Below are positions 19,304-51,027 of a stretch of 64,000 nucleotides of DNA, piece after piece. The notes beneath the pieces are model-generated. The model made no database searches, had not been told where the DNA came from, and was given only the letters and a program-made list of their open reading frames with translations. Both the position numbers and the translations under genes were made by a program. The stretch comes from Cavenderia fasciculata. Lineage: Eukaryota; Evosea; Eumycetozoa; Acytosteliales; Cavenderiaceae. How positions within the stretch are numbered: position 1 is the first letter of the stretch; each line of letters starts with the position of its first letter. The stretch is from positions 372,001-436,000 of the forward strand of contig NW_004457735.1 in NCBI RefSeq assembly GCF_000203815.1, given 5' to 3'.

Positions 19304-21715
19304 TTATTCACAGATAGGTAACAACAACCCATGACTAAATAATTTATTTTGGTTGGCATGCTTTTTCAAATTAAAATGTTTGAAATTAATAAATTGGTTT
19401 ACTTGATTGTCTTTTTTATACTTTGTAAGCAAGTAGCAAAGTGATAGAGGTTTAATTCTTTCTCTTTTGGTGTCAAAGTCCAATTCAAGTGGCTTCATTT
19501 GATATTGTTCTTTTTCGGGACCATTATAAAACTTGCCATAATGGGTGATGATTCGATCGATAGTATCAGTGATATAGTTTCGTCTAGACTCTCCAAGATA
19601 ATGTGGTGATGGGTACCTAAGAACACTAGAGACAATCAAAGAGTTTGTAGTCCAAGGTTTGAATAGATTCCACATTGTTTCAAATTCTTGGCCGTTTGTA
19701 ATATAGTAAAATGATTGAATCCATCCAGCACTTGTCACATCGTCAACCAATGTCGAAGAGATAGATTGTGAAAAAGATTGTGCAATAGTGTAGGCTATTT
19801 GATGGTGATTATGTTCAAGAGCATAGTGAAGTGGAAAATATCCATAGACCCAACTGTTTTTGACGAATTCTCCAACCAAACATGTGGCCACCTGAACAAA
19901 GCCTTTGGTGCAAACATTGTCGAAAATTTGTCTTCTTGTATCGACTATTGCATCAAAGCAAAAGTGATCCTTTGTAATTGGATGTACAACATACGATAAA
20001 TTGTCACGTAACAATTCAATGTTGGAGTCTGATTGTGCAAGAGATGTTAGTAGGATTAAAGAAGGAATGCTCTGAATAGATTGGTATTTGGTAATCAGTT
20101 GAACAATATCTATTGAAAGAATAGCTGCACACCAATCTAGTCCCATTGTGTAGTTTCCAGGTAGCATCACTTTATGATCCTTTGATAGAAAACACTCGAG
20201 TGCAGTAACAGAGATGAGAGGTACGTTTTGGAATGGTATTCTAATGGTTATACTACTATTGATGAATGATTGTAGTATATATTCTAAAATCTTTTCATTG
20301 GATACACAGAGTGCAGAAACAATGATATCATTTACATTGAGATGACCAATGAGCTTTGATGGGCCACCATTTTGGGCTTCAATTGTAAAAAGATAAACTA
20401 GTGTCTCTAATTGGTTGGCTTTTATGATAGACTCTACCAATGGTTGGTATTCAATGCAAATGTATGGGTTTTCAACCAATTGTTTAACAAGGTCCAATGA
20501 TATGATTGAAATATCTATGTCTCCATCTAGTCTATGGCTGCATCGACCAACTCCTTGTTTTGTTTTTAAAACATTATTGAAAAAGTATGCACATTGCAAA
20601 TGGCCTTGCTTTAACGATGCATTTAAATGAGATGGTTCAAAATCATTGTAACCTAACGAATCACAAAGATATAGTAGGTAATCTAAATTACCTTTTCTTG
20701 CAGCTACTGTTGATACTTTACTGTCATTTGATGGCAACTGATAGTCTATCATTTTCAATGTATCGGTGGTAGCCCATTGTTGAATGGAACGATAGGAGTG
20801 ATGATGGAAATCAACAAACTCTTGTGGGTTTTTGAAACTGTCCTTGATCCATTTTAATACCTCTTGATTGTTTGAGCACTCCAAAGCAGCAATCAACAAT
20901 TCGTGTCTTAGATCCAGACCAGATTCCAATGATCTTGTGACCATATGGAAAATGATTTGATATCTTGATCCCTCTTTGAATTCCTTGACCAATTGTGTAT
21001 TGACTAGGAAATCTTGTTGATCAAACTTAGAGGGAGGTTGTGATTTACTTCGATTATAGTACACTGGTCGGAGGACATCATCACATACTCGATCAAACAT
21101 TTCTACATCACCATGAGTGACGCACAAATAAACCAGTGATTGAATGAATCTGTGATCTAAAATGGTGAGGTCTTCTTGTTTGTTAACCTTATTCACTAGA
21201 TGATAGTTATTGTCAAATAGTATTTGTAACATTTCTTTTGAAAGTTTTTCAAAACCGATTCCCACCAAGGCTACTTTGATCGTTGTATAATCAAACACTC
21301 CTATTCTTTGCAGAATAAATCTAAATGCAACACTATTACTCCTTTTGAATATACTTGTTAATATATCTTTAAATATAGTATTCTATGATTGAGTGTGTTT
21401 GTTAGTAAATTGATTGATAGTAAGCTTTATACAAATATAGCTTACCGAAAAAGTATCTGATAATGATTTCATGTTCTGATATGCTTGATCAAAGTGTTTG
21501 ATGAATAGATCTGTACGATGCAATAGAATGCATTCATTCAATGATATCATCTGATGTGACTTTAGTATCAACGAGTGACGACTAGCAATCATTCTATGTA
21601 TACCCTCTACATGTTTAAATATCTTTGTACGGATATAATAATTGTTTATAATACTTTTAAAGTATCTATCTTTATCACTACTACTATTATTACTATTATT
21701 ATTACTATTATTCAT
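19304..21715 (-). CDS. Ankyrin-repeat-like family protein (array copy C, subfamily 1)
   Basis: Exon 1 is 21446-21715 (MNNSNNNSNN...; 90 codons) and exon 2 is 19304-21382, phase 0; 782 aa. Exon 1 carries the family module (YIRTKIFKHVEGIHRMI, LILKSHQMISLNECILLHRT, DLFIKHFDQ), which sits where dictyostelid ankyrin families often have an F-box-like helix. Exon 2 holds degenerate ankyrin-like units such as TRSLESGLDLRHELLIAALE, GNLDYLLYLCDSLGY, SLDLVKQLVEN and HNHHQIAYTIAQS. It ends in the family tail (DTIDRIITHYGKFYNGPEKE ... PLSLCYLLTKY). No catalytic motif is visible, so the role is probably protein-protein interaction. The gene is converging with receptor copy B, 93 bp away. Confidence 0.85.
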
Positions 21716-21870
21716 TGTTAGACAGATCTAAATGAAAAAAAAACATAAATAAAACTATTTTGAAGAGAGAAAGTTTTGAAAATATCTTTAAAATTATTTT
21801 TTTGTCCAAAAGGGATAAAGATCAAGATCCACACAAGTAACAACTACTGTTTATCCAACTTTATATTTAT

Positions 21871-24342
21871 TTATTCACAGATAGGTAACAACAACCCATG
21901 ACTAAATAATTTATTTTGGTTTGCATGTTTTTTCAAATTAAAATGTTTGAAATTAATAAATTGGTTTACTTGATTGTCTTTTTTATACTTTGTAAGCAAG
22001 TAGCAAAGTGATAGAGGTTTAATTCTTTCTCTTTTGGTTTCACAGTCCAATTCAAGTGGTTTCATTTGATATTGATCTTTTTCGGGACCATTATAAAATT
22101 TGCCATAATGGGTAATGATTCGATCGATAGTATCAGTGATATAGTTTCGTCGAGACTCTCCAAGATAATGTGGTGATGGGTACTTAAGAACTTTAGAGAC
22201 AATCAAAAAGTTTGTTGTCCCAGGTTTGAATAGATTCCACATTGTTTCAAATTCTTGGTCGTCTTTAATAAAGTAAAATGATTGAATCCATTCTGCACTA
22301 TCGTCAATATCTACCTTGGAAGAGATGATTGAGGGTGAAAAAGATTGTGCAATAGTATAGGCTATTTGAAAGTGATTGTGTTCTAGAGCATAGTGAAGTG
22401 GAAAACATCCATAGATCCAATTGTTGTTTTTGATGAATTCTCCAACCAAACATGTGGCCACCTGAACAAAGCCTTTGTTGATAGACTGTTCGAGAATTTG
22501 TCTTCTTGTATCGACTATTGTATCATAGTACAAGTGATCCTTTGCAATTGGATGTACAACATACGATAAATTGTCACGTAACAATTCAATGTTGGAGTCT
22601 GATTGTGCAAGAGATGTTAGTAGGATTAAAGAAGGAATGCTCTGAATCGATTGGTATTTGGTAATCAGTTGAACAATATCCATTGAAAGAATAGCTGCAC
22701 ACCAATCTAGTCCCATTGTGTAGTTTCCAGGTAGCATCACTTTATGATCCTTTGATAGAAAACACTCGAGTGCAGTAACAGAGATGAGAGGTACGTTTTG
22801 GAATGGTATTCTAATGGTTATACTACTATTGATGAATGATTGTAGTATATATTCTAAAATCTTTTCATTGGATACACAGAGTGCAGAAACGATGATATCA
22901 TTTACATTGAGATGACCAATGAGCTTTGATGAACCACCATCTTGGGCTTCAATTGTAAAAAGATAAACTAGTGTCTCTAATTGGTTGGCTTTTATGATAG
23001 ACTCTACCAATGGTTGGTATTCAATACAAATGTATCGGTTTTCGACCAATTTTTTGACAAGGTCCAATGATATGATTGAAATATCTATGTCTCCATCTAG
23101 TCTATGGCTGTATAATTGAAGACCAAATCCTTGTGTTGTGCCTAAAGCACTCATTAAAAAGTATGCACATTGCAAATGGCTTTGCTTTAACGATGCATTT
23201 AAATGAGATGGTTCAAAATCATTGTAACCTAACGAATCATAAAGATATAGTAGGTAACCCAAATTACCATTTCTTGCAGCTACTGTTGATACTTCTTCGC
23301 TGTCATTTGATGGCAACTGATAGTCTATCATTTTCAATGTATCGGTGGTAGCCCATTGTTGAATGGAACGATAGGATTGATGATGGAATTCAACAAAATC
23401 TTGTGGGTCTGTGAAACTGTCCTTGATCCATTCTACTATCTCTTGATCGTTTGAACATTCCAAAGCAGCAATCAACAATTCGTGTCTTAGATCCAGACCA
23501 CATTCCAATGATCTTGTGACCATATGGAAAATGATTTGATACCTTGATGATCCCTCATCGACACAATCAACTCCGTACAATAGTTTCTTGACTAGGCTGG
23601 TAAATATACCTGGTCGATCGTACATCATAGATGGGGGTTGTGCTTTACCCGTTTGACCATTGTACAAAGGCCAGAGGACATCATCACATACTCGATCAAA
23701 CATTTCCACATCACCATGAGTGATACACCAATAAACGAGTGATTGAATGAATCTGTGGTCCAAATATGTGAGATGGTCTTGACTGTTTACCTTATTCACT
23801 ATATGATAGTTATTGTCAAACAGTATTTGTAGCATTTCTTTTGAAGGTGTTTCAAAAACGACTCCTAGCAATGCAGATCTTATCGTTGTATATTCAAACG
23901 AAGGTCCTATTCTATGTATCATAAATTTAAGTGCATCTATATTATTCCTTTTGAATATACTTGCTAATATATCTTTAAATATATCATTCTATAACGATAG
24001 TATTAAATTCTGTTAGTAAATTGATCCGTTAATTCATACCTCTAGAGGAATCCTCTTTTATATTTAGCTTACCGAAAAAGTATCTGATAATGATTTCATT
24101 GTCTGATAAACTTGATCAAAGTGTTTGATGAATAGATCTGTACGATGCAATAGAATGAATTCATTCAATGATATCATCTGATGTGACTTTAGTATCAACG
24201 AGTGACGACTAGCAATCATTCTATGTATACCCTCTACATGTTTAAATATCTTTGTACGGATATAATAATTGTTTATAATACTTTTAAAGTATCTATCTTT
24301 ATCACTACTACTATTATTACTATTATTATTACTATTATTCAT
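21871..24342 (-). CDS. Ankyrin-repeat-like family protein (array copy D, subfamily 1)
   Basis: Exon 1 is 24073-24342 and exon 2 is 21871-23988, phase 0; 795 aa. It is a recent tandem duplicate of copy C: exon 1 differs at only a few residues, and the C-terminal 140 residues and a central block are almost identical. The N-terminal part of exon 2 (region of SLVKKLLYGVDCVDEGSSRY) and the IDDSAEWIQSFYFIKDDQ region are more divergent, including a small length difference. The intervening 155 bp hold only AT-rich sequence. Function is unknown beyond ankyrin-type interaction. Confidence 0.85.
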
Positions 24343-24465
24343 TGTTTTAACCTCAAATGAAAAAAAAAGATAATAAAACTATTTTCAAGTTAGAGAAAGT
24401 TTTAGCTTTTTGGAGTTGAATTATTATTTTTATTTTAATTTAGTTGGTACTTGGGAATTATTTAT

Positions 24466-26840
24466 TTATTTCTTTGTGAATGGGATTATACCATCAGTTT
24501 GAATGTAATATTGATCTATATTGAAATCAGTGAAATCAATGACTGGACAATCTCTGTAATAATTAAATAGATGATGGATATTCAGTGGATCAATTTCCAA
24601 CTCGTTGTTGAGAGCAAGTGGTGTCATATTATATTGATCTTTCTCTGGACCATTATAATATCGAGTATAGTGTTTGATGATTCTATCGATTGTGTTGGTG
24701 ACTCGGTGTCTTTGTGAAAATGCGAAATTGGCACTTGATGAAATAGCCTTTGTTACAAATAAAGAGGGACTAGTCCAAGGTTGTATTACATCCCACATCA
24801 TTTCAAAGTCTTGATCATTATCTATAAAGTAGAATGAGGCCAAGATTTGTGGTTTGAGATCATCCATTTTTTTGAATTGGGTGGCGATCATTTGACCAAT
24901 GAATAGTGCCAGTTGAATATGTTTGTGTTGTAATGCTGTTCCAAAAAGTCTAACTCCACATTCCAAAAACAAGCCTTCAATACTTTCAAAACACTCTACC
25001 ACTTGAACCAAACCTTTCTTGCATAATTCTGGTAATATGTCATATCGCAGTATACGTTTGAATAAACCTAAATCTTGTCGGTGGTGTTGATTGATGACTG
25101 ATATTGTATCACGCAACAGCTTTGTGTTTTTAAAGTCTGGATGTTTTACCGATGAAAGGATTACCCAAGGTTGAATATTTCCACTTTCAATCGATAGACG
25201 ATCGATTAATAATTGAATGGTTTGTGGTGAGGTTGGAATTTGATATCTTTTGGTTCTAACATTGGTTAGAGAATTGAATGGAGATATTTCAATAGTGTGA
25301 CCTTTGTTGAAAAGTAAAAGTAGCGGACCATAACATATATTGTCGTCATTATAATCTACTATAAATGTTTGAGGTGGTCGACCCTCCGAGGAAGAGAAGA
25401 ACTTGTCCAACAACATTTCAGTGATGATTGGGTTATTCACTCCAAGAGACATGGTCACAAACTTTTTGTAAATTGCATGTGTGTCTGTAACGCGTTGCAA
25501 CAAGATAAACTCCAAAGTTTCAGGTTGATTTAATTTAATAGCCGATTCAATCAATCCATCAAAATCAGTAATTTTACATTGACTATCAACCAACCGTTTG
25601 ACAAGATCCAGTGACATGATTAATGGATCTATCATTCTATATAGTAGTGGTACACCACCTTGTTTGGTAACCGTGATTAAAAAGTTGGCACATTCCAAAT
25701 GTCCTCCTAGCAATGAGACCTGGAGTTGTGCACAGCTATCATGTTGAAATAGAGGTTTGAATTCTTTAATGTCATACATGTATGTTAGAAAATCCAAGTT
25801 TCCATGTAGAGATGCTCTATTTGACAATAATATTGGTGAATTAAGTAGTTGTAGTTTGAAATCTATTAATTCAAGTGTACTGGTTGTTGCATATCTTTCA
25901 ATTGATTGAAAAACATTAGATTCTTGACATAGTTTTTTAAAACCTTCTTTTGAATCATCAAAACTATCTCTGATCCATTTTATAATCTCTTGATTATTAT
26001 CACATTCCAATGCACCAATAAATAAGTTTGATCTTAAATCTAAACAACCAAATAGTATCAACTTTGATACCATTTCAAATATTATTTCATATTTTGATTC
26101 ATTACTATTATTTTCATTATTATTTGTTGAATGTTGTTGTTGAGTAGTTAATTTGTTGATTAAATTTCCAAATGATTCCCATTGACTATAAAAACCACAT
26201 TTGTTACTGATATCATCCAGATGATCTTTACAAATTCTATCAAACATCTCCAAATCACCATTCAAGACTACGTGTCTTGTAAGAATACCAACAAATGAAT
26301 TGTGATCATTATTAGTATCTTCATCATCAACATCTTCATTTTCATCTAGTAAATGATAGTTGTGCTGAATTAAAATTCTACACAAACCAATAGGTGGTTT
26401 GATAGAGCTAGCTCCAAGCATCATTGAACCAAGCATGGTCTTATCAAATATTCCAACCCTTTTCAACATATATTCAAATGCAATATATCCATCGTATTGA
26501 ATGATTGTTGTCAATATCTGCTTGATTGTGTGACTCTACATAGATTTGTTAATATACTTTACACTTTCATAAATAACAAATATTAACTTACTTGATCTTT
26601 AGAAACTGATTGATATACACTATCAAAGTGTTTAATGAATAGATCATTTCTATATACTTTGATGCATTCACATAGTGTAACTATCTGATTTGATTTGAGT
26701 GATCGTATGTGATGATTCTTGTAACTATCATTGATACTCTGATGTATGATCTCTACATGATTGAATATCTTTTTTCTGATATAACTACTTTGTAATAAAC
26801 TTTTAAATAGATTATTTATATTTACTTCTTTGTTGTTCAT
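24466..26840 (-). CDS. Ankyrin-repeat-like family protein (array copy E, subfamily 2)
   Basis: Exon 1 is 26592-26840 (MNNKEVNINNLFKSLLQSSY...; 83 codons) and exon 2 is 24466-26535; 772 aa. The ORF extends upstream to 26900, but paralogues start at MNNK, so 26840 is preferred. Ankyrin-like units include GNLDFLTYMYDIKEF, GGHLECANFLITV, SLDLVKRLVDSQC and NQPETLEFILLQ. The tail reads NTIDRIIKHYTRYYNGPEKD and then YRDCPVIDFTDFNIDQYYIQ. An Asn/Gln-rich linker near residue 220 varies in length between paralogues. It is the same subfamily as copies F, G and O. Confidence 0.85.
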
Positions 26841-26937
26841 TTGATACTTTGATTTAAATGAGTGAGGTGAGAGATACAAAGAAAACAAATATGAAGACAC
26901 CTCTTGGGAAGTTCAAAATTTCATTTTTTGGATTTAT

Positions 26938-29284
26938 TTATTTGTTGAATGGGATGACACCTAGTTCATTGTTTTGAATGTAATATTTGTCTACATTGAA
27001 ATCAGAGAAGTCAATGACTGGACAATCTCTGTAATTGGTGTATAGATGATGGATATTAAATGGATCAAATGATTGATCTCTGTTGGTAATTCTAATTGGT
27101 GTCATTTTGAATTGATCTTTCTCTGGACTATTATAATATCGAGTATAATGTTTGATGAATCTATCTATTGTTTTGGTCTTTGAGGATCTTTTTGAAAATT
27201 TAAAGCGTGAGTATGTGATAGCTCTTGAGACATATGAAGAGTTACTCGTGAGAGGTTGTAATACATCCCAAATCATTTCAAAGTCTTGATCATCATCGAT
27301 AAAGTAAAAATAATTCAAAATCAATTCTAGTCGGTTGGTATCCATTTCTTTGAAATGAGTGGTGATTGCTTGTCCCAAGAATAGTGCCATTTGAGTTTGT
27401 TTGTATTCCATTGCCGTTCTAAAAAGTGAGTCTCCAAATTTCCAAGCCCAGTCTCCAAAACATTCAACCACTTTAACCAACCCCATTCTACATGCTTCAT
27501 TCAATACATCGTGTTGTAATTCTTGCATATCTTCTTCGGGGTATTGGTTGATGAGTGATAGTGTATCTTTCAACAACTTGTAGTCACCTTGGTCATTAAA
27601 ATCTGGATGATTGACAGATACAAGTATCACCCATGGTGGTACTCTTTCAATCGATAGATGTTCAAGACATAATTGAACCACTTTTTGTGATACTATTGAT
27701 GGATTAGAAGTATAATATTCCAATGGATTAAATTCGATAGAATGACCTTTGTTGAAAAGTGATAATAGTGGAGCATAACATATTTTTTTGTCAATGTATT
27801 CAACTGTAAATGTTTTGGGTGGTCGATCCTCGGAAGAGAAGAACCTGTCCAACAACATTTCAGTGATGACTGGGTCATCCAATGCAAGCGACATGATAAC
27901 AAACTTTTCGTCGCTGTCAAAAAACTCCATATTTTCATCTTTCAACAGTGACAAGATAAACTCTAAAGTTTCAGGTTGATTTGATTTGATCGCTGATTCA
28001 ATCAATCCACTAAAACTCATCATCTGGCATTGAATTTCGACCAATCGTTTGACAAGATCCAATGACATGATTGATGGATCAATAGACCAACATTGTAATT
28101 TTGTATAACCTTCTTTGACTGCTATTGTCATTAAAAAGTTGGCGCATTCCAAATGTGGACCTGACAGTGAATCATGAAGTTGTGTTTTTTCAAATAGATA
28201 TTGGTATTGTTTCATGTCATACATGTATGATAGAAAATCCAAGTTTCCAAATTGAGCTGCTCTCGTTGACAATCGATTCGATGATGATACTAGTTGGTTG
28301 AATTCTATTAACTTAAGTGTATTGGTTGTTGCATATTTTTCAATTGGAAATAAAAGATAGTGTTGAAATAGTTGGTTAAAATCTTCTACTGTCCCATTAC
28401 CTTGTTCTTTTGAATCAAAACTATCTCTGATCCATTTAATAATCTCTTGATTATTATCACATTCCAATGCATCAATAAATAATAGTGATCTTAGATCTAC
28501 ACCAAAACTTAATAGTTTCTTGACCATATAAAATATTACATAATACTTTGATTGATTATTATTATCACCATTATTATTATTATTGTTGTTGTTATTTGTT
28601 GTATGTTGTTGATTATTTAATTTGTTGATTAAACCTTTGAATGATCGCTTGTCGACATAAAAACTAAATTTGTCACTGTTATGATCAAAATAATCATTAA
28701 AAATTCTATCAAACATCTCCAATTCACCGTTAAAGACTGCCAGTCTTGTCAGAACGTCAACAAATATCGCATGATCAGTTTCATTATCATTCTTTTCAGG
28801 TAAATGATAATTGTGCTGAATGAGTAGTCTAAATACATTGATAGGTGGTTTGATAAAACCATCTCTAAGGACTGTCATTTTGATTCTTCCAAACCTTTGC
28901 AACAAATAATCTAATTCAACATGTCCATCATATTGAAATATAGTATTTAATATCTGTTTGAATGTTTTATTCTACATAGATAATGTTATTAGGAATCACT
29001 TTATTTCTTTATAATATTAAACATACATTAAAACTAAACTCCTTTTCATTAGAGTATGACAACATTGATTGATATACACTATCAAAGTGTTTGATGAATA
29101 GATCGCTTCTATTTACTTTGATACATTCACATAATGAAACTATCTGATTTGATTTTAGTACTAATAAGTCACTACTAATGATACGCTGATGAATAATCTC
29201 TACATGATTGAATATCTTTGTTCTAATATAACTACTATGTAATAAACTTTTAAATAGATTATTTATATCTGCTTTGTTGTTCAT
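26938..29284 (-). CDS. Ankyrin-repeat-like family protein (array copy F, subfamily 2)
   Basis: Exon 1 is 29027-29284 (86 codons, ends FSFN before GTATGT) and exon 2 is 26938-28971; 763 aa. It has the family module IRTKIFNHVEIIHQRI, a polyasparagine linker (TTNNNNNNNNNGDNNNQ) and ankyrin-like units (GNLDFLSYMYDMKQY, PHLECANFLMTIA, NQPETLEFILSLL). It ends with the subfamily tail (YRDCPVIDFSDFNVDKYYIQ). No interruption is visible, so it is probably functional. Confidence 0.85.
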
Positions 29285-29420: not shown

Positions 29421-31767
29421 TTAATTGTTGAATGGGATGATACCTAGTTCAATATTTTGAATGTAATATTGATCTATATTGAAATCAGAGAAGTCAATGA
29501 CTGGACAATCTCTGTAATTGGTGTATAGATGATTGATATTAAATGGATCTAATGGTAACCTCAAATTGCTGTAAATTTTAATTGGTATCATTTCAAATTC
29601 ATCTTTCTCTGGACCATTATAATATCGAGTATAGTGTTTGATGATTCTATCGATTGTGTTGGTGATTCGGTGTCTTTGTGAGTTTTTATACGCTTTATAA
29701 TTATATGTGGCGATAGAGACATGTGAAGCGTTACTTGTTATCGGTTTTAAGAGATTCCAAAACATTTCAAAGTCTTGTTCACCATGGATAAAGTGCAAAG
29801 AAGGCAATAGATCCATTAATGTCATATCATCGCAATGAGTAGCGATTGATTGCCCAATATAATATGCCAATTGAATATGTTTGTACTCCAATGCAGTTCT
29901 AAAGAGTGACACACCAAATTGCCAAACCCAGTCTCCAAGACACTCGACCACTTTAATCAACCCAATTCTGCATGTCAGGTTCATTATTTGTTGGTACATA
30001 ATCAAATCTTCTTGAGTGTGTGGGTGGATGATTGAAATTGTATGTTTCAACAACTTGTAGTCACTTTGGTCATTAAAATCTGGATGATTGACAGATGCAA
30101 GTATCACCCATGGTGGTACTCTTTCAAGCGATAGACGATCGATTAATAATTGAACAACTTTTGGTAAAAATAAAAAACAGAGTATCAATGCTGTTTGTTT
30201 GGGTTGTTTAATTTCAATAGAATGACCTTTGTTGAAAAGTGATAAAAGTGGTGCATAACATATTTTGTTGTCATTGAATTGAATTTTAAATGTTTGAGGT
30301 TGTTGATCCTCGGAAGAGAAGAACTTGTCCAACAGCATTTCAGTGATTGTTTGATTATCTACTTTCAGAGACACCAATACAAATCTTGTACCAAGTTCCT
30401 TCAACTCTTGACTAGAGACCTCTTTTAGCAATGACAAGATAAACTCCAAAGTTTCAGGTTGATTTGATTTAATAGCTGATTCAATCAATCCAGTAAAATC
30501 CATCATTTGACATTGACTATCAACCAATCTTTTAACAAGATCCAAAGACATGATTGATGGATGAATAGTCCAAAATATATGGGTATAAGAATGTTCACTT
30601 TCTTTAACTTCTTTAGCTTTAATTTTCATTAAAAAATTAGCACATTCTAAATGTCCGTCAGATAATGACGCCGCCAGTTGAGCTCTATCAAATAGATACT
30701 TGTACTCTTTCATGTCATACATGTGCGATAGAAAGTCCAAGTTTCCAAATTTAGCTGCTACAGTTGACATGACTGGTGGTGATTGTAGTTTGAATTCTAT
30801 TAATTCAAGTGTATGGGTTGTTGCATACATTTCAATTGAACTAATAACTCTTTTGTGTTGTTGACATAGTTTAATAAAATCATCTTTTGAATCATAACTA
30901 TATCTGATCCATTTTATAATCTCTTGATTATTCTTATCACATTCCATTGCAATAATAAATAATTCTGATCTTAAATCTACTAAACTATATCCTATTAATT
31001 TCTTGACCATATAGAATAGTATATCATACTTTGATTGATTATTATTGAATAAATCTTTGCATGATCCCCATGAGTGCCAGTCATCATCCATTGTTCGCTC
31101 AAAATTTATATTGTTTTTGTTGTTGGTATGATCTAAATAATCATGACAAATTCTATCAAACAACTCCAAATCACCATTCATTACTACTTGTTTTGTAAGA
31201 ATACCAACAAAGGCATAGTGATCATTATCATCATTTTCATCTAAATGATAGTTTTGTTGAATTAAAAGTCTACACACACCAATAGATATATAGTTCATAA
31301 ATGTAGCTCCGAGAAATCTATGATTGAGAAGGACGGTCTTTTCAATTCTTTCAAACCTTTTCATCATATATTCTAATTCAATATGTCCATCGTATTGAAA
31401 TATAGCTTTCAATATCTGTTGGAATTGTTGACTCTATACATAATTGTTGTTAGCTTTTAAACCCTCATGATTCATGTTGCTGTTAACATACATTTAAACT
31501 AAATTCCTTTTCATGAGATGACGACAACATTGATTGATATACACTATCAAAGTGTTTGATGAATAGATCACTTCTATGTACTTTGATACATTCACATAGT
31601 GTCATTATCTGATTTGATTTGAGTGCTAGTTTATCGTAACTGTAAATGATTCTCTGATGTATAATCTCTACATGATTGAATATCTTTTTTCTAATATAAC
31701 TATTATGTAATAAACTTTTAAATAGATTATTTATATCTAGATTTATATCTACTACTTTGGTGTTCAT
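29421..31767 (-). CDS. Ankyrin-repeat-like family protein (array copy G, subfamily 2)
   Basis: Exon 1 is 31492-31767 (92 codons) and exon 2 is 29421-31433; 762 aa. It follows the same plan as copies E, F and O: family module in exon 1, ankyrin-like units in exon 2 (GNLDFLSHMYDMKEY, DGHLECANFLMKI, SLDLVKRLVDSQC) and the NTIDRIIKHYTRYYNGPEKD tail. It lacks the long polyN linker found in F. One spot near TALILCFLFLPKVVQLLIDR looks locally divergent from paralogues (which have VTPQAVQLLIDR there), possibly a small replacement. The gene is otherwise intact. Confidence 0.85.
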
Positions 31768-31871: not shown

Positions 31872-31980
31872 TTATTTGCTGTTGAATGGGATGACACCAT
31901 CATTCTTATCATTTCCAATGAAATCTTTTTCTTGGTGAGTTTGAATGTAATATTGATCTACATTGAAATCAGTGAAACAG
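31872..31980 (-). pseudogene. C-terminal remnant of an ankyrin array gene (subfamily 2)
   Basis: On the minus strand this encodes FTDFNVDQYYIQTHQEKDFI and then a GVIPFNSK-stop ending, matching the last ~35 residues of copies E, F, G and O. Homology stops abruptly near 31978 and is followed at once by the acceptor site of a hAT transposase exon on the plus strand. The rest of this copy has been deleted or displaced. Confidence 0.8.
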
Positions 31981-32015
31981 GCTATAATATTAACCAAAAA
32001 TTAAATTAAATCTAG

Positions 32016-38372: not shown

Positions 38373-40091
38373 TTATTTATTCTTTTTAATTGTATTATCA
38401 AATGGGATTAATCCAATTGATTGATTGTTGATGTAAAATTGATTGTTGATGTAAAATTGATTGATATCAAAATCATTAAAATTGATTATTTGATTGAATT
38501 GTGGATCATGTCTATATTTAGAGATGATATAGTAGGTGACAAATGTATTGTAGCTGGACAATCGCAAAGGTTCCATTTGATATTGATCTCTTTCAGGACC
38601 ATTATAGAATCTTGAATAGTTTAGTATGATTCTATCAATTACACGAGATACATGACAACGATAATATCCTGTATCAAATGGTGGCTGTGTAAATAGTTGG
38701 GATACCAACTTTGAATTGGTCGTAGAGAATGATTTAAAATCATTCCAAAAAGATTCGAATGTTTGGTCGTCGGTAATATAGTAAAATGATGATAATATCT
38801 TGGCTTGATCTCTTTCCCATATCTCTTTATCAGATGGTTGACACATAAAGTCAAAGTCGTATGGGTCTGGTTCCACTTTTTCCTTTTCGTGAAACTGAAC
38901 AAGAGACATGCATTCATTGGTCAAATACTTTGCAACTTTGAATTGTTTGTATTTAATTGCTGTTGTGAATGAATCTATAAAACTGTCAATATTCGATACC
39001 AAACATGCCACAGTTTTAACCAATCCATTCTTACTTGCTTTAATTAATGTTTTTTTAATCTTTTCATAAAATTGAAGAGATTTTAATGTTGGTAATACAT
39101 CTTTTAAAAGATGAATATCATCATCACAATATCCAAATCGTTTGAGTATTACCCAAGGATGAATAGTGTTGATTGGTTGATACTTTATAATCAATTGAAG
39201 GATTTCAAGTGATGGTTCTTTTGGTACTTGTTTGATATGGTATGATATAGGGGATGGAGATATGCTAATCTCTAGTGAACAATGACCAAGTGAATATAAA
39301 TATTCAAGTGGTTGATATTCCATATCACAAATATTGTCAGTTGTCACTTGAATGGATGATATAGTTGGTTCTTCCTCATCTTCGTTGTAGTATGTATTCA
39401 ATAGATACTCTATCATAGTAGTATCCTCAATACATAATGCACCAACAATTAAACTGCCATAGTCTGTGAACCCTTGAGCCACAAGAGGAGAGAGTATGTG
39501 TTGTAAAATATCCAATTGATTAGTCTTGATGGTTGTAAGAGCCAGTTTGACTGAAAGGCGTATATATGGATTGAGGGCCAATTGCTCCACAAGATCCAAT
39601 GATATGATTGATGGGTTGACCTTTAGGATGATAAGAGGGCGAACAATTATTCCTCTTGTTTCCTCTAGATACAACCCAGCATTTTGTATTTCTTTTAATA
39701 ATATTTTAGAGTATTCCAAATGACCCTTGTCCAAAGCAATATGAAGTTGGTCTCCAAAATAATGGAAACCATTTTCAACAAAAGGGATTATATAATTGAG
39801 GAAATCTATGTTTCCATGTTCTGGTGAATCGATATTGCTAATTCTATCTTTTGAGTGTTGAAATTCAATCAACTCCAAAGTTTCAGTTGATGCATATCTT
39901 TGGATTTGCTCAAAATATCTACCACTGAAACCAAGAAACTCTTGTATTGTACCAAAACTATCTTTAATCCATTTTATAATCTCTTGATTATTATCACATT
40001 CCAATGCATCCATAAATAAATTACCTCTTAAATCTAATCCATGTCCTATTAATTTGTTGACCATATAATATATTATTTCATATTTTGATTG

Positions 40092-40148
<57 letters not shown>

Positions 40149-40937
40149 TTGATTATTATGATTATTATTATTGCCTTGTTGTTGATTATTTAATTTGTTG
40201 ATTAGATTTTTAAATGATAATTTGACCTGCAGATCATATCTATATCGAATACTTTTTTGAGCTGGTTCTAGAATATCTTTACAAATTTGATCAAACATTT
40301 CCAAATCACCTGTTGTTAATGGACAATAGAGAAGCTCCATAGCAAACCCAGTTGATTGTTTAAATAGTGTGATGTGGTTCATGAGAATAGAAAGACTATT
40401 TTTTGTTGGTTGCCATATTTGAGAATACTGCCAAATGAAATCAGAAAATCCTCCCAATCTATCTACCATCATATCAAATGCTGTTTTGTTTTCATATTTC
40501 AACGCTGTGAATAATAATTCATTGAATTTACTAAACTGTAAGATTGAATTAATAACTGCATATTCTATATTTATCTCTCTCTCTGTCTCTCTCTTCTTTT
40601 TTTTATTGCAACATACAAAATAATCAGATTTTACATCTACACCAATCTTTTCATGAAAAGATTCAATTGATTGATATATTTGATCAAAATGTTTGATGAA
40701 TAGATCAGTACGATGTACAATGATGCATTCTTTTAAACTAATGATCTCATGTGACTTTAATCTGTAGATCATCGGTTGACCAACATGTTGGTGTAACTTG
40801 TGATGAATGATCCCTACATGATTGAATATCTTTGTTCTTAGATACTTGTTGTTGAGTATACTTTTAAAGTACTCACTCTTTGTATTATCTGTGTTACTAT
40901 CTAATATATTATTATTATTATTACTATCTCTATTCAT
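38373..40937 (-). CDS. Ankyrin-repeat-like family protein (copy J, subfamily 4)
   Basis: The ORF is continuous for 854 codons. By comparison with paralogues an 81-nt intron (GTATGT...TTACAG, 40536-40616) should be removed, giving exons 40617-40937 and 38373-40535 (827 aa). The intron is a multiple of three without stops, so retention would insert 27 basic residues (CCNKKKKRETERE region). Exon 1 holds YLRTKIFNHVGIIHHKL and HEIISLKECIIVHRTDLFIK. Exon 2 holds a polyN tract of about 20 Asn, ankyrin-like units (GNIDFLNYIIPF, KGHLEYSKILLKEI, NGLVKTVACLVS) and the tail RVIDRIILNYSRFYNGPERD. A duplicated segment (DINQFYINNQFYINNQ) lies at the C-terminus. Confidence 0.85.
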
Positions 40938-41025: not shown

Positions 41026-42760
41026 TTATTTATTAAAGATAAATGGAATTAATCCAATTGATTGATTGTTGATGTAAAATTGATTGATATCAAAATCATT
41101 AAAATTGATGATTTGATTGAATTGTGGATCATGTCTGTATTTAGAGATGATGTGGTAGGTGACAAATGCATTTCGATTGTAACTAGACAATTGTAATGGT
41201 TGCATTTGATATTGGTCTCTTTCAGGACCATTATAGAATCTTGAATAGTTTAGTATGATCCGATCAATTAAATTTGATACATAGCGACGATAATATCCTG
41301 TATCAAATGGTGACTCTGCTAATAGTTCAGATACCATTGATGAGTTGGTTGTAGAGTATGATTTACAATCATTCCAAAATGATTTAAATAGTTGGTCGTC
41401 TTCAATATAGTAAAATGATGATAATATCTTGATATGTTCTCTTTCCCAAATCTTTTTATCAGATGGACCTCTGCGGACCGAATAGTCGTAAAATAGGCTG
41501 GGTCTAACCCGAGGAGAAATGTTTTCCTCTTCCTCTTCATTGTTTAAATGAACAAGTGATATGCATTCATTGATCAAATACTCGGCAACTTTGATTTGAT
41601 TGTGTATGATTGCCGTCTTGAATGAATCTGCAAAACGATTAATATCCATGACCAAACATTCAACAGTTTTAATCAATCCATTCTTACTTGCTTTGATTAA
41701 TGTATCTTGAATCTTGGATGATCGTTGGGTAGAGGGTACCAATCTTAGAGTTGATATTAAAAGATCGATACCTTCGTCACAATATCCAAATCGAGCAAGT
41801 ATTACCCAAGGATGAATAGGTTGTTGAGTGTTGATTGGTTGATACTTTATAATCAATTCAAGTATTTCAAGTGATGGTTCTTTTGTTTGTTTGATTTGGT
41901 GCCAATTTGGAGATGGTGGTAATTTAATGTCGAGTGAATGACCAAGTGAATATAAATATTCAAGTGGTTGATGCATCATATCACCAATTATGTTTGTTTT
42001 CACTTGGAATGATGTTGTAGTCGTTCTGTCATCATCATCATCGTTGTTGTAGTATGTATTCAATAAATACTCTATTATAGTTGTATCATCAATACATAAT
42101 GCACCAACGATGAGACTATTAGTGTTTAAATATTGTTGGTTTGTATATGGACTGAGTAAGTGTTGTAAACTATCCAATTGTTTGGCCTTGATGGCTGTAA
42201 GAGCAATATCCTCGACTAAAACTTTAATATATGGGTGTTGAGACAATCTTTGGACGAGATCCAATGACATGATCGATTCATGTACACTATTGACATAAAT
42301 TTGTAAACGACCATATAATTCTTCATTTCTTTTCATGCCTTGGTCGTGTATTACTTGTAATACAATAAGTGAATACTCCAAATGACCATTATCCAAAGCT
42401 GTTTGGAGAGTATTGAAATCATATAAACTATTTGCCATAATGGGGAGTGTATAATTGAGGAAATCTATGTTTCCATAATCTGATGAAGTACAATTTTCAT
42501 AGGATACACGTACATCTACTGGATTTAATTGAATCAACTTTAAAGTTTCAGTTGATGCATATTGTTTGATATGATAAATAAAATTGATTTGATTATAGAA
42601 ACCAATAAACTCTGGCATTGAACCAAAACTATCTTTTATCCATTTAATAATCTCTTGATTATTATCACATTTCAATGCATCCATAAATAAATTACCTCTT
42701 AAATCCATATCATATTCCTTTAATTTGTTGACCATATAATATATTATTTCATATTTTGAT

Positions 42761-42822
<62 letters not shown>

Positions 42823-43595
42823 GTCTTGTTGTTGTTGTTGTGTTGTGGTTGTTGATTTAATTTGTTGATTAGATATTTAAATGCAAATTTAAGGGGTTTA
42901 TAAGAACCGTATAAATCATTTGTACCGTATGTAATATTCTTGATTCTGTCAGATTGAGTTGGTTCAAGAATATCTTTACATATTTGATCAAACATTTCCA
43001 AATCACCTGTTGATATTGGATGACAGAGAAGTAACCCAACATATTGCACTGGTTGCTGCTGATAGTGAGTGATGTGATTCATGAGAATAGAAAGACTATT
43101 TTTTGTTGGTCTCCATATATTGGAGTATCGATTAAGGAAATTATTGGGTAATTTACCTCCCAATCTATCTACCATCATATCAAATGCTGTTTTGTTTTCA
43201 TATTTCAACGCTGTGTATAATAAATCATCAAATATACTAAACTATAAGGCGATTATTTATTGTTAAATATTTAAGTTAACTTTATAATAGTATCAATACT
43301 ATGTTTTGCTTTTCTTTTCTAGATTACATACATCTCTGATAACTGATTTAAAAACTTGATCAAAATGTTTGATGAATAGATCAGTACGATGTACAATGAT
43401 ACATTCTTTCAAACTAATGATCTCGTGTGACTTGAATCTGTAGATCATCGGTTGACCTTGACCACCATCACCATACAACTTGTAGTGAATGATCCCTACA
43501 TCTTTGAATATCTTTGTTCTTAGATACTTGCTATTGAGTATACTTTTAAAGTATTCTCTCTTTGTATCTGTATTACTACTATCTTCTCTATTCAT
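41026..43595 (-). pseudogene. Ankyrin-repeat-like family gene with a frameshift in a CAA/AAT tract (copy K, subfamily 4)
   Basis: Exon 1 is 43332-43595 (88 codons). Exon 2 runs 43241-41026 but is split between two frames. The upstream frame reads FKYLINKLNQQPQHNNNN and then a false poly-Ile ending at 42744. The downstream frame resumes as ESKYEIIYYMVNKLKEYDMD and continues to the normal C-terminus at 41026. A 1-nt slip around 42825-42865, inside the CAA/AAT repeats, explains it. Either the gene is dead or the repeat length was miscalled. Otherwise it matches copy J across the whole length, including FYNGPERDQYQMQPLQL. Confidence 0.7.
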
Positions 43596-43734: not shown

Positions 43735-44389
43735 TTAATTGAATGGAATTAATCCAATTGATTGATTTTTGTTGTAAAATTGATTGATATCAAAATCATT
43801 AAAATTGATTATTTGATTGAATTGTGGATCATGTCTATATTTAGATATGATATAATAAGTGACAAATGTATTGTAGCTGGACAATCGCAAAGGTTCCATT
43901 TGATATTGATCTCTTTCAGGACCATTATATGTTAGATCTAGATTGTTTAAAATCAATGATATCTCATTGAACTCAATATACTCAATCCTGGTTAGGACAA
44001 GTCAAAAATGTAAACTATTTTGGATAAAATACTAAAGACTAACCATCGTCAGTTAGTCGTGGATCAACAATTATAAAAAGGATTAGAATAATCCAATAAA
44101 GAGACATTCTATATTATATATTCTATATTCATTATTCATTATTACTATAATATTATTCATTCTATTTAATCATCTTTTATTATTATAATTAAATAATCAT
44201 TTACAATCTAATCTAAAGACATTATCACTATCTATATATTCATATATCTATATATTATTATATACCTCTCAAACTAATTATATATTTACCAAGTATCTAT
44301 ATAGTTATTACATTAGGTACTTGCTATTGAGTATAAACTTAAAGTATTCACTTCTTCTTTTATCTGTATCTTTATTACTATTATTCATT
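43735..44389 (-). pseudogene. Chimeric remnant: ankyrin gene ends around a foreign signal-peptide exon (copy L)
   Basis: 43735-43930 encodes the last ~65 residues of subfamily 4 (YNGPERDQYQMEPLRL ... SIGLIPFN). 44316-44389 encodes the first ~24 residues of exon 1 (MNNSNKDTDKRRSEYFKFIL). Between them the ankyrin body is absent. Instead, 44044-44107 reads as a signal-peptide-like exon (MSLYWIILILFIIVDPRLTD) followed by a GT donor, and a possible acceptor near 43988 leads into an LRR-like phrase (EYIEFNEISLILNNLDLTYN) that merges with the ankyrin tail. The phases of these two pieces do not join in frame. Confidence 0.6.
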
Positions 44390-44479
44390 GTCTGAAAGAA
44401 CAAAATGATCATTTGTTTTTTTTTGATGAAGATCATGACCGACAATTATAATATTTATTTTATTAAATTCTTTTTTATT

Positions 44480-46941
44480 TTATAATGGGATAATACCAAT
44501 TAAAAGATTATTATTTTTAATATAAAATTGATTGATATCAAAATCATTAAAATTGATTATTTGATTGAATTGTGGATCATGTCTATATTTAGAGATGATA
44601 TAGTAGGTGTTGAATGGATGTGATGGATTGGGCAATTGTAATGGTTGCATTTGATATTGATCTCTTTCAGGACCATTATAAAATCTTGAATAGTTTAGTA
44701 TGATCCGATCAATTGTATTGGATATTTGACGACGATAATATCTTGTATCAAATGGCGACTCTTCTAATAATTTAGAGACCACCGATGAGTTGGTTGTAGA
44801 GAATGATTTAAAATCATTCCAAAATGATTCAAATGTTTCGTCGTCTCCAATATAGTAAAATGATGGTAATATCCTGGCATGAATAGTTTCCCATATCTCT
44901 TTATTGGATTGACCTGAACCACCCAAAAATTCAGAAAATAGGTTGTTGTAAACCTCTTCTTCTGCTTCTGGTGTAATGATTTCATCCTCTTCTTCTTCTT
45001 CTTCAATAAAATGAACAAGAGAAATGCATTCATTGGTTAAATACTTTGCAACTTTAATTTGTTTGTATTTGATTGCTGATGAGAATGAATCCTCAAAACT
45101 ATGAACATTCGATACCAAACATTCGACAGTTTTAACCAATCCATTCTTACTTGCTTTAATTAATGTGTCTCGTTTTATGTCATAGAATGCAATATCTGAT
45201 ACCAATGACAAAGCATCTTTTAAAAGATGAATATCATCATCACAATATCCAAATCTTGAGAGTATATCACTCGGATGAATAGTGGCGATTGGTTGATACT
45301 TTATAATCAATTGAAGTATTTCAAGTGATGGTACTTTTTTTTCTTGTTTTAATATTGCCAACACACTTTGAGATTGTTCCATTCTAATGTCTAGTGAATG
45401 ACCAAGTGAATATAAATATTCAAGTGGTTGAGGCATCATATCACAAATATTGTCAGTTGTCACTTGGAATGATTTGGATCTTGTAGTTGGTTCTGCATCA
45501 TCATCGTTGTTGTAATATCTATTCAATAGATACTCTATATTAGTTGTATCATCAATACACAATGCTCCAAAAATCAATCTATTCGTGTCCAAATATCCTT
45601 CTTGAGCCCTGTAAAGATTGAGTATGTGTTGTAAAATATCAAATTGTTTGGCCTTGATAGCTATCAGAGCCAATTCGGTGACTGAAACTTGTAGATATTG
45701 ATTCGCAAACAATCTAGTGACAAGATTGAATGTCATAATAGATGGGTTGACGCTTTCGACTTTGATACGACCATAATAATGAATTCCGATTACTATACGT
45801 TCAATGGTTTGTATTAAAATATTAAAATATTCCAAATGGCCCTTGTCCAAAGCTGTTTGGACCATTATAGAGAAAGAATATGATTCTTGCTCTAAAATAG
45901 GGAGCACAAAGTTGAGGAAATCAATGTTTCCATCAGCTGAAACTATTTTCTCTGTTAGGTTTGAATTCAATCAACTTTAAAGTTTCAGTTGATGCATATT
46001 TTTGAATTTGTTTTAAATGTTGATATCTACCATACAAACCAATAAACCCTTCTTTTTTTTCATAACTATCTTTTATCCATTTAATAATCTCTTGATTATT
46101 ATCACATTTCAATGCATCTACAAATAAATTACCTCTTATATCCATACCATATTCCTTTAATTTGTTGACCATATAATATATTATTTCATATTTTGATTCA
46201 TTATTATTATTATTATTAGTTGTATGTTGTTGGTGTTGATTTAATTTGTTGATTACATGTTTAAATGAAAATGGGAGATGGTCACAATAACCATATGAAG
46301 GAAAGATCAGAGTTCCATTGGGAACAGGATCAAGAACGAGTTGGCATATATGATCAAACATTTCCAAATCACCTGTTGTTACAGGTAACCAAAGAACAAG
46401 ATGAGCATAACCAGTTGGTTGAAAGTATGTGATGTGATTCATGAGAATAGAAAGACTACTTTTGGTTGGTCTCCATTGATTTCTTAAAATAGAATGGGGC
46501 AATTCTCCGGCTCTCTCTATCAACATATCAAATGCTGTTTTGTTTTCATACTTTAACGCTGTGATTAGTAAACTATTGAAGTTATCTTGCTATATTGATT
46601 AATTGAATATTAGCTAATTCACTTCAGTGTACGATATTGATGGGTGACTCTCTTTCTTTTAAAGTACATACATCTCTGTTAACTGATTTAAAAACTTGAT
46701 CAAAATGTTTGATGAATAGATCAGTACGATTTACAATGATACATTCTTTCAAACTAATGATCTCATGTGACTTTAATCTATAGATAATCGGTTGACCTTG
46801 ACGACAATACAACTTGTGATGAATGATCCCTACATCTTTGAATATCTTTGTTCTCAGGTACTTGCTATTGAGTATACTCTTAAAGTATTCACTTCTTCTT
46901 TGATCTGTATTACTACTATTATTATTACTATCTCTATTCAT
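44480..46941 (-). pseudogene. Ankyrin-repeat-like family gene with a 1-nt frameshift (copy M, subfamily 4)
   Basis: Exon 1 is 46672-46941 (90 codons). Exon 2 spans 46589-44480 but its length is 1 nt off frame. The upstream frame runs through KYASTETLKLIEFKPNRE and stops; the downstream frame continues from about 45965 as SADGNIDFLNFVLPILEQES to the usual tail. The two frames overlap at 45933-45970, so the indel lies there. An acidic insert (EEEEEDEIITPEAEEEV) distinguishes this copy. The rest is intact, so this is a recent lesion or a base-call error. Confidence 0.7.
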
Positions 46942-47046
46942 TCTCTAACACAAAATGATCATCACTTATTTTAATTTCAAAAGACTTTAACAGGTTGGGC
47001 AAAAAAAACAAAACAAAATAAACTAATAACAATATGCACTATTTAT

Positions 47047-47612
47047 TTATTCAAAGATAAATGGAATTAATCCAATTGATTGATTTTTGTTGTAAAATTG
47101 ATTGATATCAAAATCATTAAAATTGATTATTTGATTGAATTGTGGATCATGTCTATATTTAGAGATGATATAATAGGTGTTGAATGGATCTCGACTGGTG
47201 TGGATGTTGTTTGGATTGTACAATCGCAATGGTTGCATTTGATATTGATCTCTTTCAGGACCATTATAAAATCTTGAATAGTTTTGGATGACTCTATCAA
47301 TAGTATTGGATATTTGACTACGATTAGATGTTGGATAGAATGGTGGCTGTGTTAATAATTAAAAAGATTTAATTTAAGATCAGTACGATGTACAATGATA
47401 AATTCTTCTAAACTAATGATCTCATGTGACTTTAATCTGTAGATCATCGGTTGACCTTGACCACCATCACATGAGTACAACATGTCATGAATAATCTCAA
47501 CATCTTTAAATATCTTTGTTCTTGGATACTTATTGTTTAGTATACTTTTAAAGAATTCAGTTCTTCTTTTATCACTATGATTATTGATCTTATCACTATT
47601 ATTACTATACAT
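47047..47612 (-). pseudogene. Ankyrin-repeat-like gene with a large internal deletion (copy N, subfamily 4)
   Basis: Exon 1 sequence (47612 to about 47375; MYSNNSDKINNHSDKRRTEF ... EFIIVHRTDL) breaks off before the normal FIKHFDQ. About 20 nt later it continues with C-terminal sequence found ~2 kb further on in intact copies (LLTQPPFYPTSN, SNTIDRVIQNYSRFYNGPER, SIGLIPFIFE). The two parts are in different frames. The intron and the whole ankyrin body are gone, as expected from a single deletion. Confidence 0.8.
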
Positions 47613-47708
47613 TATTTAGAAATAAAAAGTGAATACGGTTTTTTTTTTTCATCTTGTGCCTCTTTGCTACACAAAAATTATTTAATTTATTATTATTATT
47701 ATTTTTAT

Positions 47709-50074
47709 TTAATTGTTTTTTGTGAATGGGAAGATACCTTCTTTATGATTATCTTCAAGATATGAGTCTACATTGAAATCAGTGAAATCAATGACTGGAC
47801 AATCTCTGTAATTGTTATAGAGATGGTTGAAATGAAGACATCCACCATGCTCATTGGTAATTTTGATTGGTGTCATTTTGAATTGACCTTTCTCTGCTGC
47901 TCCATTATAATATCGAGTATAATGTTTGATGACTCTATCGATTGTGTTGGTGACTCGGTGTCGTTGTGAATATACAAAATTGTTCACTGACATGATGGCA
48001 TGAATCACATGAGAAGAGCTGGTTGTAAAAGGTTTTAATGCATCCCAAATCATTTCAAAGTCTTGATCATTATCTATATCGAGTAAAGAGTATAAGATAC
48101 CTTCGTAATCATCAAGTTGTTGGAAGCGAGAACTGATTAATTGACTAATGTATAGTGCCATTTGAATTTGATTGTACTCCAATGCCGTTCTAAAAAGTGA
48201 GTCTCCAAATTCCCAAATCCAGTCTCCAAAACATTCAATAACTTTAATCAAACCATTTGAATATAAATATTGAAGTTTTTTATATTGGTACACCTCTTCT
48301 TCAGGGTATTGATTGATGAGTGATATTGTATCTTTCAACAACTTGTAGTCATTAAAATCTGGATGATGGATTGATGCAAGTATCACCCATGGTGGTACAC
48401 TTTCAATCGATAGACGATCGATTAATAATTGAACAGCTTGTGGTGTGACTTTTGATAGTCTTTTTTTCCTTGAAAGAGGAAGTATTTCTATAGAATGACC
48501 TTTGTTGAAAAGTGATAATAGTGGACCATAACATAGATCATTCCCTTTGGAATTTAAATGAAAGGTTTGAGGAGGTTGATCAGAGAATAACTTGTCCAAC
48601 AATATTTCAGTGATTTTTGGGTTATCTATTTTAAGAGACAACAAGACAAGTCTTGTATAAATAGAAAAATCTTCTCTCATCTGAGAGTCTACATTTTCCA
48701 ACTGTGAAAAGATAAACTCTAAAGTTTCAGGTTGATTTGATTCGATAGCTGATTCAATCAATCCATCAAAATCCAACATTTGACATTGACTATCAACCAA
48801 CCTTTTAACAAGATCCAATGACATGATTGATGGATGAATGTCTCCAAATTCTACTTCTGCACCTTCTTTGACTGCACATGTCACTAAAAAATTAGCACAT
48901 TCCAAGTGTCCTTCAGTCAATGATGCCTCAAGTTGTCCATTTCCAAATAGATAATTGTACTCTTTCATGTCATACATGTATGTTAGAAAGTCCAAGTTTC
49001 CAAATTGAGCTGCGTCTATTGACAATAGTCGTGGTGATTCAAGTTTGAATTCTATTAATTCAAGTGTATTGGTTGTTGCATATCTTTCAATTAGAGTAAG
49101 AACTTGAGATTGTTGAAATAGTTTCACAAAACTTTCTTTTTCATCAAAACTATCTTTTATCCATTTTATAATCTCTTGATTATTACCACCTTCCAAAGCA
49201 TCCACAAATAATGTTGATCTTAAATCTATACCGTATCCTATTAATTTGTTGACCATATAGAATATTTTAATATACTTTGATTGAATATTATTATTATCTT
49301 TGTTGTTGGTTGTGTGTAGTTGTTGTTGTTGATTATTTAATTTGTTGATTAAATCTTTGAATGATCCCCAATGGTGATAAAAAATAAGATTTTGGTTGAT
49401 GATGGTATGATCAAAATAATCGTTACAAATTCTATCAAACATCTCCAAATCACCATTCATCATAACATGTTTTGTAAGATTACCAACAAAGGTAAAGACA
49501 TCTTTATCATTCATATCGAGTTTTAAATGATAGTTTTGTTGAATTAAAAGCCGACACAAACCAATCGGTGGGATGACGAAACCAACTCGAAGCATCATCG
49601 ATCTGAGTTTGGTCATCTCTATTCCTCCAAACCTTTTCAACAAATATTCTAATTCAACATGTCCATCGTATTCAAATATAGTTTTCAATATCTTTTCAAA
49701 TACTTGACTCTACATATATAGACTTGTTGTTAGAATTGATTTATATTATGTATGATCATCATCATCATAAAATTACATACATTAAAACTAAACTCCTTTT
49801 CATTAGAGTATGACAACATTGATTGATATACACTATCAAAGTGTTTAATGAATAGATCACTTCTATTTACTTTGATACATTCACATAGTGTCATTATCTG
49901 ATTTGATTTGAGTGCTAGTTTGTAATGATTCTTATCATCGTTATTAATGATTCTGTGATGAATGATCTCTACATGATTGAATATCTTTGTTCTTAGATAC
50001 TTGTTGTTGAGTATACCTTTAAAGTACTCACTTCTTCTTTTATCACTATCACTATTATTACTATTACTATACAT
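47709..50074 (-). CDS. Ankyrin-repeat-like family protein (copy O, subfamily 2)
   Basis: Exon 1 is 49781-50074 (98 codons) and exon 2 is 47709-49709; 764 aa. Exon 1 starts like subfamily 4 (MYSNSNNSDSDKRRSEYFKG, ILNNKYLRTKIF) but then follows subfamily 2 (NHVEIIHHRI, LKSNQIMTLCECIKVNRSDL). Exon 2 is subfamily 2 throughout (GNLDFLTYMYDMKEY, EGHLECANFLVTC, YRDCPVIDFTDFNVD). The first part of exon 1 thus looks recombined between subfamilies. The copy is far from its relatives E-G, separated by subfamilies 3 and 4. No interruption is seen. Confidence 0.85.
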
Positions 50075-50223
50075 TATTTGTATAAATAAATAAAAGTGAA
50101 ATGAAGTGCACTTGTTTTTTTTTCATCATTATTTTGTCTCTTTGAAAAAAAAAAATATCTTCTTAAAACAAAAATTATTTAATTTATTAATTTATAAATC
50201 TATTTGTAAAACTAACTCATAGT

Positions 50224-51027
50224 TTAGTGGAGAGGAATCAAACCAAACCTAATATTATTAAAATAAAATTGATTGATATCAAAATCATTAAAATTGATTA
50301 TTTGATTGAATTGTGGATCATGTTTATATTTAGAGATGATATAGTAGGTGTTGAATGGATGTAGATAGTAGTCGGTGGTGTTGTCTGGATTGGACAATTG
50401 TAATGGTTGCATTTGATATTGATCTCTTTCAGGACCATCATAAAATCTTGAGTAGTTTTTAAGGGTCCAGTCAATCACATTGGATATTTGACAACGATTA
50501 AATGTTGAGTAGAATGGTGGCAGTGTTAATAATTGAGAGACCATCTTGGAGTTGGTTGTGAGTGCTTTAAAATCATTCCAATATGATTCAAATCGAGTTT
50601 CATCACTACTGACATAATACAATGCATTTAAAAGTTTAATTTTTTTGTCATCTTGAGCACCTTGAAGAATATTAGTATTCTTTGAAAAGCATTCTCTTGC
50701 CAAATAATCTGTCACTTTGAATTGATTGTTTTTGGCAGCTTCAGTGAATGAATCTACAAAACCGCCAAAATCAAATGATGGCAAACATTGCACAACCTTG
50801 ACCAATCCATTCTTACTTGCTGCCATTAATGTGTCTTTAATCTTGGTGATAGGGTATGATGGAAGATTTCTAATTGATCCCAACAAGTTATCGTTTAAAA
50901 GATGAATTTCATCTTCACAATATCCAAATCTTGAGAGTATGATCAAAGGATGAATAGGTTGTTGGGTGTTGAATAGTTGGTACTTGATAATCATTTGAAT
51001 GATTTCAAGTGATGGTACTTTTTTTTA
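50224..51027 (-). pseudogene. 5'-truncated ankyrin array gene (copy P, subfamily 4)
   Basis: Only the C-terminal third remains. The frame is open from a poly-A (KVPSLEIIQMIIKYQ) to LIPLH-stop and contains NGLVKVVQCLPS, NNQFKVTDYLA and NYSRFYDGPERDQYQM. Upstream homology ends at the poly-T/A run 51018-51025, where an unrelated gene on the opposite strand begins. Exon 1 and most of the ankyrin body are missing. Confidence 0.8.

Follow-up and report, generated by a model that had tools for sequence, protein, structure and literature searches.

What kind of gene family lies behind a run of related, partly broken two-exon genes in the genome of Cavenderia fasciculata, and what might its proteins do? 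The DNA considered here, hereafter the window, is the whole 64,000-nucleotide stretch from contig NW_004457735.1 (positions 372,001 to 436,000). From its letters, the original prediction described an ankyrin array in active birth-and-death and saw a resemblance to recognition or immune-type families. We asked which parts of this description hold at the level of the copies, the genome, the predicted proteins and the substitutions between them.

Sixteen copies and fragments on one strand

Judging from reading frames, starts, donors and acceptors, the window contains 16 complete or fragmentary copies of a single two-exon family between 19304 and 51024, all on the minus strand (Table 1), in keeping with the at least 15 copies on one strand that had been predicted. 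When the window was searched with nine exon-2 and six exon-1 array queries (tblastn, E ≤ 1e-3), matches were confined to the minus strand (19307–51024), with zero family matches on the plus strand. Seven of the 16 are intact (A1, A2, B1, B2, B3, B4 and D1). The remaining nine are lesioned or partial (C1, C2, D2, D3, D4, the B-type tail, the D-type tail, the exon-1 fragment and the D5 piece), which agrees with the expectation that about half would be damaged in several ways: we found a nonsense codon in C1, frameshifts in D2 and D3, truncation in C2, a deletion chimera in D4, and fragments. These lesions were read from one assembly, and the single-base ones could partly be sequencing errors; that explanation hardly fits the deletions and fragments.

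Table 1 Features of the array and of related loci (window positions unless a contig or locus is named)
Feature	Position	Strand	Exon 1	Exon 2	Remarks
Ras-domain gene with exon-1-like stretch after it	9378–10867				about 8 kb from array; Ras above Pfam cut-off
Copy A1, intact	19304–21715	-	21446–21715	19304–21382	
Copy A2, intact	21871–24342	-	24073–24342	21871–23988	mosaic with A1
Copy B1, intact	24466–26840	-	26592–26840	24466–26535	
Copy B2, intact	26938–29284	-	29027–29284	26938–28971	
Copy B3, intact	29421–31767	-	31492–31767	29421–31433	
B-type tail fragment	31875–31976	-			adjoins hAT transposase fragment
Copy C1, broken	33976–36469	-			in-frame TGA at 35884–35886
Copy C2, broken	36589–38233	-			exon 1 without first half of module; exon 2 truncated
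Copy D1, intact	38373–40937	-	40617–40937	38373–40535	
Copy D2, broken	41026–43595	-			frameshift adjoining N/Q tract, near 42744–42876
D-type tail fragment	43738–43968	-			97% identity to D1 tail over 169 bp
Exon-1 fragment	44314–44403	-			
Copy D3, broken	44480–46941	-			frameshift near 45931–45970
Copy D4, deletion chimera	47047–47612	-			exon 1 fused to tail, without ankyrin part
Copy B4, intact	47709–50074	-			exon 1 D-type (to about +100)/B-type chimera
993-bp inverted duplicate	50019–51011				reversed G000:C3:341184–342176; 993/993 bases identical
D5, C-terminal piece	50224–51024	-			almost wholly inside breakpoint duplicate
Right half of gene apparently cut by inversion	51012–52183	+			left half at G000:C3:342177 onwards
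Ras-domain gene with exon-1-like stretch after it	L040:1–1101				beside C3:334–342 kb copies; Ras and Ank_2 above Pfam cut-off

Ten exon 1s were tested and all have a phase-0 (in-frame) donor, its motif picked by eye; nine of the ten copies also have a listed open acceptor, the exception being D2. The D1 intron (40536–40616) is stop-free and a multiple of three in length, such that its retention would add 27 residues. A maximum-likelihood tree of exon 2 recovered groups A, B, C and D, confirming the four subfamilies initially proposed. Divergence within the array is considerable: 11 other exon-2 sequences are 30–61% identical to B4 exon 2, and A2 and A1 share 82% protein identity over exon 2.

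Other features lie within and beside the array. A fragment of the C-terminal dimerisation region of a hAT transposase (31994–32485; Pfam E 2.2e-24) is located inside it, next to the B-type tail. Between this piece and C1 (33000–33950) are coding-looking fragments that seem, by eye, to be cysteine-rich, and the ORF at 33627–33953 had no Pfam match. To the left of the array are two head-to-head gene regions (11055–14595, minus strand; 15261–19093, plus strand), with ComC supersandwich domains in ORFs 11058–12035 and 17828–19090. At 52742–55801, a 1019-residue ORF has a terminal RhoGAP match below threshold (21.4 versus 24.5 bits).

Exchange, an apparent inversion and the wider family

Two of the copies are chimeras, as had been noticed at the outset. 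One is D4 and the other is B4. Over the three blocks of B4 exon 1 that cover +10 to +99, the match to D1 is 77, 90 and 100% and that to the B copies 40–80%, whereas in the following blocks the B copies match at 60–100% and the D copies at 26–80%. B4 exon 1 is a D/B chimera with its switch near +100. Between A1 and A2, windows devoid of silent differences alternate with windows of pS 0.3–0.4, and the silently different codons, 42 of 781, are not evenly spread but form clusters (by permutation, p = 0.0003 on window variance and p = 0.023 on the longest run). As far as sequence comparison can tell, the chimeric and mosaic copies show exchange among copies. Duplication in tandem, pseudogenes and sequence exchange are all present, as birth-and-death evolution entails, and we regard the array as a real instance of this process in a lineage-specific, probably adaptor-like family.

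The right end of the array coincides with a 993-bp duplicate whose two members are identical, inverted and ~81 kb apart. One side of the duplicate, from C3:342177 on, is flanked by the 5′ half of a gene that has, by eye, a signal-like start and is oriented toward the junction; on the other side, from 51012 on, the window carries the 3′ half of the same kind of gene. L040:8185–9461 belongs to the same signature. Searching with the 3′ half returned 11 matches, one of them the window itself, and five of the other loci were examined. The two halves are contiguous in four of these (L057–L060), compared with which the window join has 12 extra bases at the junction; no left half was found at L061, the fifth. 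Apparently, the ~81 kb of C3:342177–423011 were inverted, the staggered breaks being filled in as the inverted duplicate, and the event seems recent. An assembly error would need to have created both junctions, which is unlikely.

If the region was indeed inverted, then the copies on the plus strand at C3:334–342 kb and those on the minus strand in the window once belonged to one same-strand array, and a single longer array was apparently split into C3:334–342 kb (plus) and C3:391–422 kb (minus). The same reading makes D5 a by-product. As nearly all of it falls within the duplicated 993 bp, it was rejected as an independent copy, and the array stands at 16 copies and fragments with this one reassigned to the inversion breakpoint. 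Should the inversion be polymorphic, array turnover would be directly measurable between strains.

The local array is real, but genome searches show that the family extends far beyond it. The B4 exon-2 query gave 47 genome matches, and genes read by eye make up a close family of 31 copies and fragments: 16 in the window, three at C3:334–342 kb, one at C3:278 kb, six at C18:792–809 kb, one on C20, two on C21, one on C14 and one fragment on C12. Intact frames are found in 14 of them (seven in the window, four on C18 and one each at C3:278, C3:337 and C20) and 17 are incomplete. The exon-1 module occurs at no fewer than 75 places in the genome at E ≤ 1e-4 and at least 92 at E ≤ 0.01 (union of two queries with 78 and 76 matches); these counts of the best candidates scored are lower bounds, and the weakest matches may be due to chance. 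No relative of exon 1 was confirmed among 111 pattern matches on viral contigs or among 18 prokaryotic ones.

The exon-1 search also yielded a distant branch of eight members. Six of the seven that were read end in CILM, CNLM or CTLM, that is C-(I/T/N)-L-M (such ends are present at L046, L047, L048 and L050 and missing at L049), and we take these termini to resemble a CaaX box. In addition, the exon-1 profile matches the two near-array Ras-domain genes of Table 1 (E 5e-5 and 9e-5; weak matches in a small test set), only one of which, L040:1–1101, passes the Ank_2 cut-off. With its CaaX-ending relatives and the weak Ras-gene match, the exon-1 module suggests a large family of adaptors or signalling proteins. 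The same relatives and match would also suit a role in which the array proteins are adaptors linked to small-GTPase and membrane signalling, but a C-terminal CaaX is found in none of the seven intact array copies and the Ras match is as weak as stated, and we hold this role to be distinctly improbable.

Predicted fold, selection and likely role

Full frames of the window copies span 762–827 residues. Exon 1 contributes 83–107 residues with 14 invariant columns across ten copies, and in the seven intact copies exon 2 adds 666–720, including an N/Q linker of variable length. The tail is of the type Y-x-(R/K)-(F/Y)-Y-N-G-P-E-(R/K), with departures at one or two positions in B2 and B4. The conserved exon-1 module, the length-variable linker and the conserved tail were all part of the original prediction, and each was recovered.

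The B4 exon-2 model is an alpha-solenoid (62% helix, pLDDT 78.5). Structural re-alignment of this fold placed ankyrin-type proteins on top, with FEM1 ankyrin receptors among the best matches (families missing from this list are not thereby excluded), and matches in a viral structure library were mostly ankyrin proteins. In a plain Foldseek search against the PDB, the first ankyrin-named row ranked 15th, after a designed repeat protein, PPR10 and other solenoids. No Pfam model of any kind scored above cut-off in ten exon-2 and two exon-1 array sequences; for the ankyrin models, the best Ank_2 score among the ten exon-2 proteins was 26.0 against a cut-off of 27.3 bits, which one relative outside the window did pass. 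Because all ten remain below cut-off, the initial wording ‘degenerate ankyrin-like’ is appropriate, and the proteins are not classed as ankyrin members by sequence. Overall, each appears to be an entirely helical solenoid of degenerate ankyrin-like units, flanked by the conserved exon-1 module on one side and the conserved tail on the other; the ankyrin-type fold itself is a prediction.

The FEM1 matches, together with a constant N-terminal helical module followed by a repeat domain, are in line with substrate receptors for ubiquitin ligases of the cullin type, in which exon 1 would dock as a degenerate F-box-like module; degenerate F-box sequences have been described in Dictyostelium (PMC9485057). 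Against this, there were zero F-box matches in three exon-1 and six exon-2 sequences at E ≤ 0.5 or in ten exon-2 sequences at E ≤ 1, scans that degenerate F-boxes can escape, and the exon-1 model has an unreadable fold (pLDDT 51.7). We consider such a function quite unlikely.

Selection was evaluated by dN/dS, which the original prediction had named as a check. Pairwise values were 0.34–0.59 in 14 of 14 pairs, and mean omega was 0.39–0.62 in three modelled groups (B, comprising the array B copies and the C20 relative, and C18 and C5, from outside the array). Locally, pN exceeded pS in some windows: pN/pS was below 1 in sliding windows of the multi-copy groups except for one D window (1.09), and pN was nominally greater than pS in seven of 25 A1–A2 windows, each with few silent differences. 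Comparison of M8 with M8a gave p = 8e-12 and 4e-11 in two groups without masking, and 3.5e-5 (B), 1.9e-6 (C18) and 2.6e-7 (C5) when positions near gaps and poorly aligned stretches were masked. Once double and triple changes were allowed, the values became 0.099 (B), 0.09 (C18) and 0.036 (C5). Positive selection was rejected as a firm conclusion, as the signal largely vanishes when multi-nucleotide substitutions are modelled. Since both multi-nucleotide events and gene conversion can mimic selection, the result should not be read as negative. The site list for the C18 group is meaningless, because the fitted M8 places 53% of codons at omega 1.2 after multi-nucleotide terms are added.

These results bear directly on the suggested recognition or immune-type role, under which the solenoids would bind microbial or non-self proteins and conflict would keep the array variable. 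The tandem arrangement, the chimeras and the many broken copies are compatible with it, as are the masked standard site models in all three groups and the A1–A2 windows. Mean omega below 1, the loss of signal with multi-nucleotide changes and the ability of conversion between copies to imitate selection argue otherwise, and no immune or defence model matched the array sequences scanned with Pfam and PADLOC (for the latter, four sequences at E ≤ 0.1). Local expansion and high turnover are upheld from the original pattern, and the immune-type label is not; we regard it as decidedly unlikely.

A mostly redundant expansion, in which duplication in an unstable region leaves little selected function per copy, is a somewhat better prospect, if still on the unlikely side. 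It would account for the 17 incomplete members of the close family and for the M1a fits of two groups, which assign 46% and 54% of codons to the class with omega = 1, and the inversion signature and hAT fragment indicate a lively region. Full open frames in 14 of 31 members, the uniformly low pairwise omega and the conservation of exon 1 and tail run counter to it.

We favour, as probable, a tandem array, specific to the lineage, that belongs to a large family whose proteins, built from the exon-1 module, the ankyrin-like solenoid, the N/Q linker and the tail, serve as adaptors. They would be cytosolic and, from the predicted fold, their most likely role would be protein binding, with constant ends docking to common partners and a solenoid that varies. 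We infer that copy number drifts while weak purifying selection acts on the intact copies. A bolder and unlikely extension is that the helical exon-1 module, with its 75 places, serves an adaptor system not yet described as its shared plug, carrying solenoids that are free (as in the array), apparently anchored in membranes by a CaaX end or behind a Ras-like GTPase, and that the array is its fast-changing target-binding part.

Comparison with known systems

A literature search, weak on subscription papers, found no description of this exon-1/ankyrin-like family, and the word ‘ankyrin’ is absent from the main text of PMC4931340. In a small space the locus displays the processes by which an amoeba gene family is remade: copies arise in tandem, exchange sequence and decay, and an apparent inversion has left a breakpoint duplicate that is still 100% identical.

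Among known systems, tandem recognition genes such as tgr of Dictyostelium are likewise lineage-specific and fast-changing, and TgrB1 and TgrC1 are polymorphic and bind sister cells (PMC12324515); in contrast to the polymorphic tgr genes, the array is known here from one genome. The F-box/FNIP proteins of Dictyostelium likewise come in families of many members that combine a repeat domain with an N-terminal module (PMC9485057), from which the array differs in that the sequences scanned had no F-box or FNIP match. Giant-virus ankyrin proteins, such as Mimivirus R840 and others, are the best matches to the predicted array fold in the viral structure library, but sequence identity is 8–15% among the 50 matches listed, and the viral side has no confirmed exon-1 relative. 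The ankyrin-repeat proteins (Pfam Ank and Ank_2 to Ank_4; FEM1, ankyrin-1) are the best re-aligned structural neighbours; they have the helix-pair solenoid that is predicted for the array and share a few GN/GH-L-(D/E) units with it. The array proteins depart from them in their degenerate repeats, which stay below the Pfam cut-off, and in carrying three additional parts: the N/Q linker, the exon-1 module and the tail.
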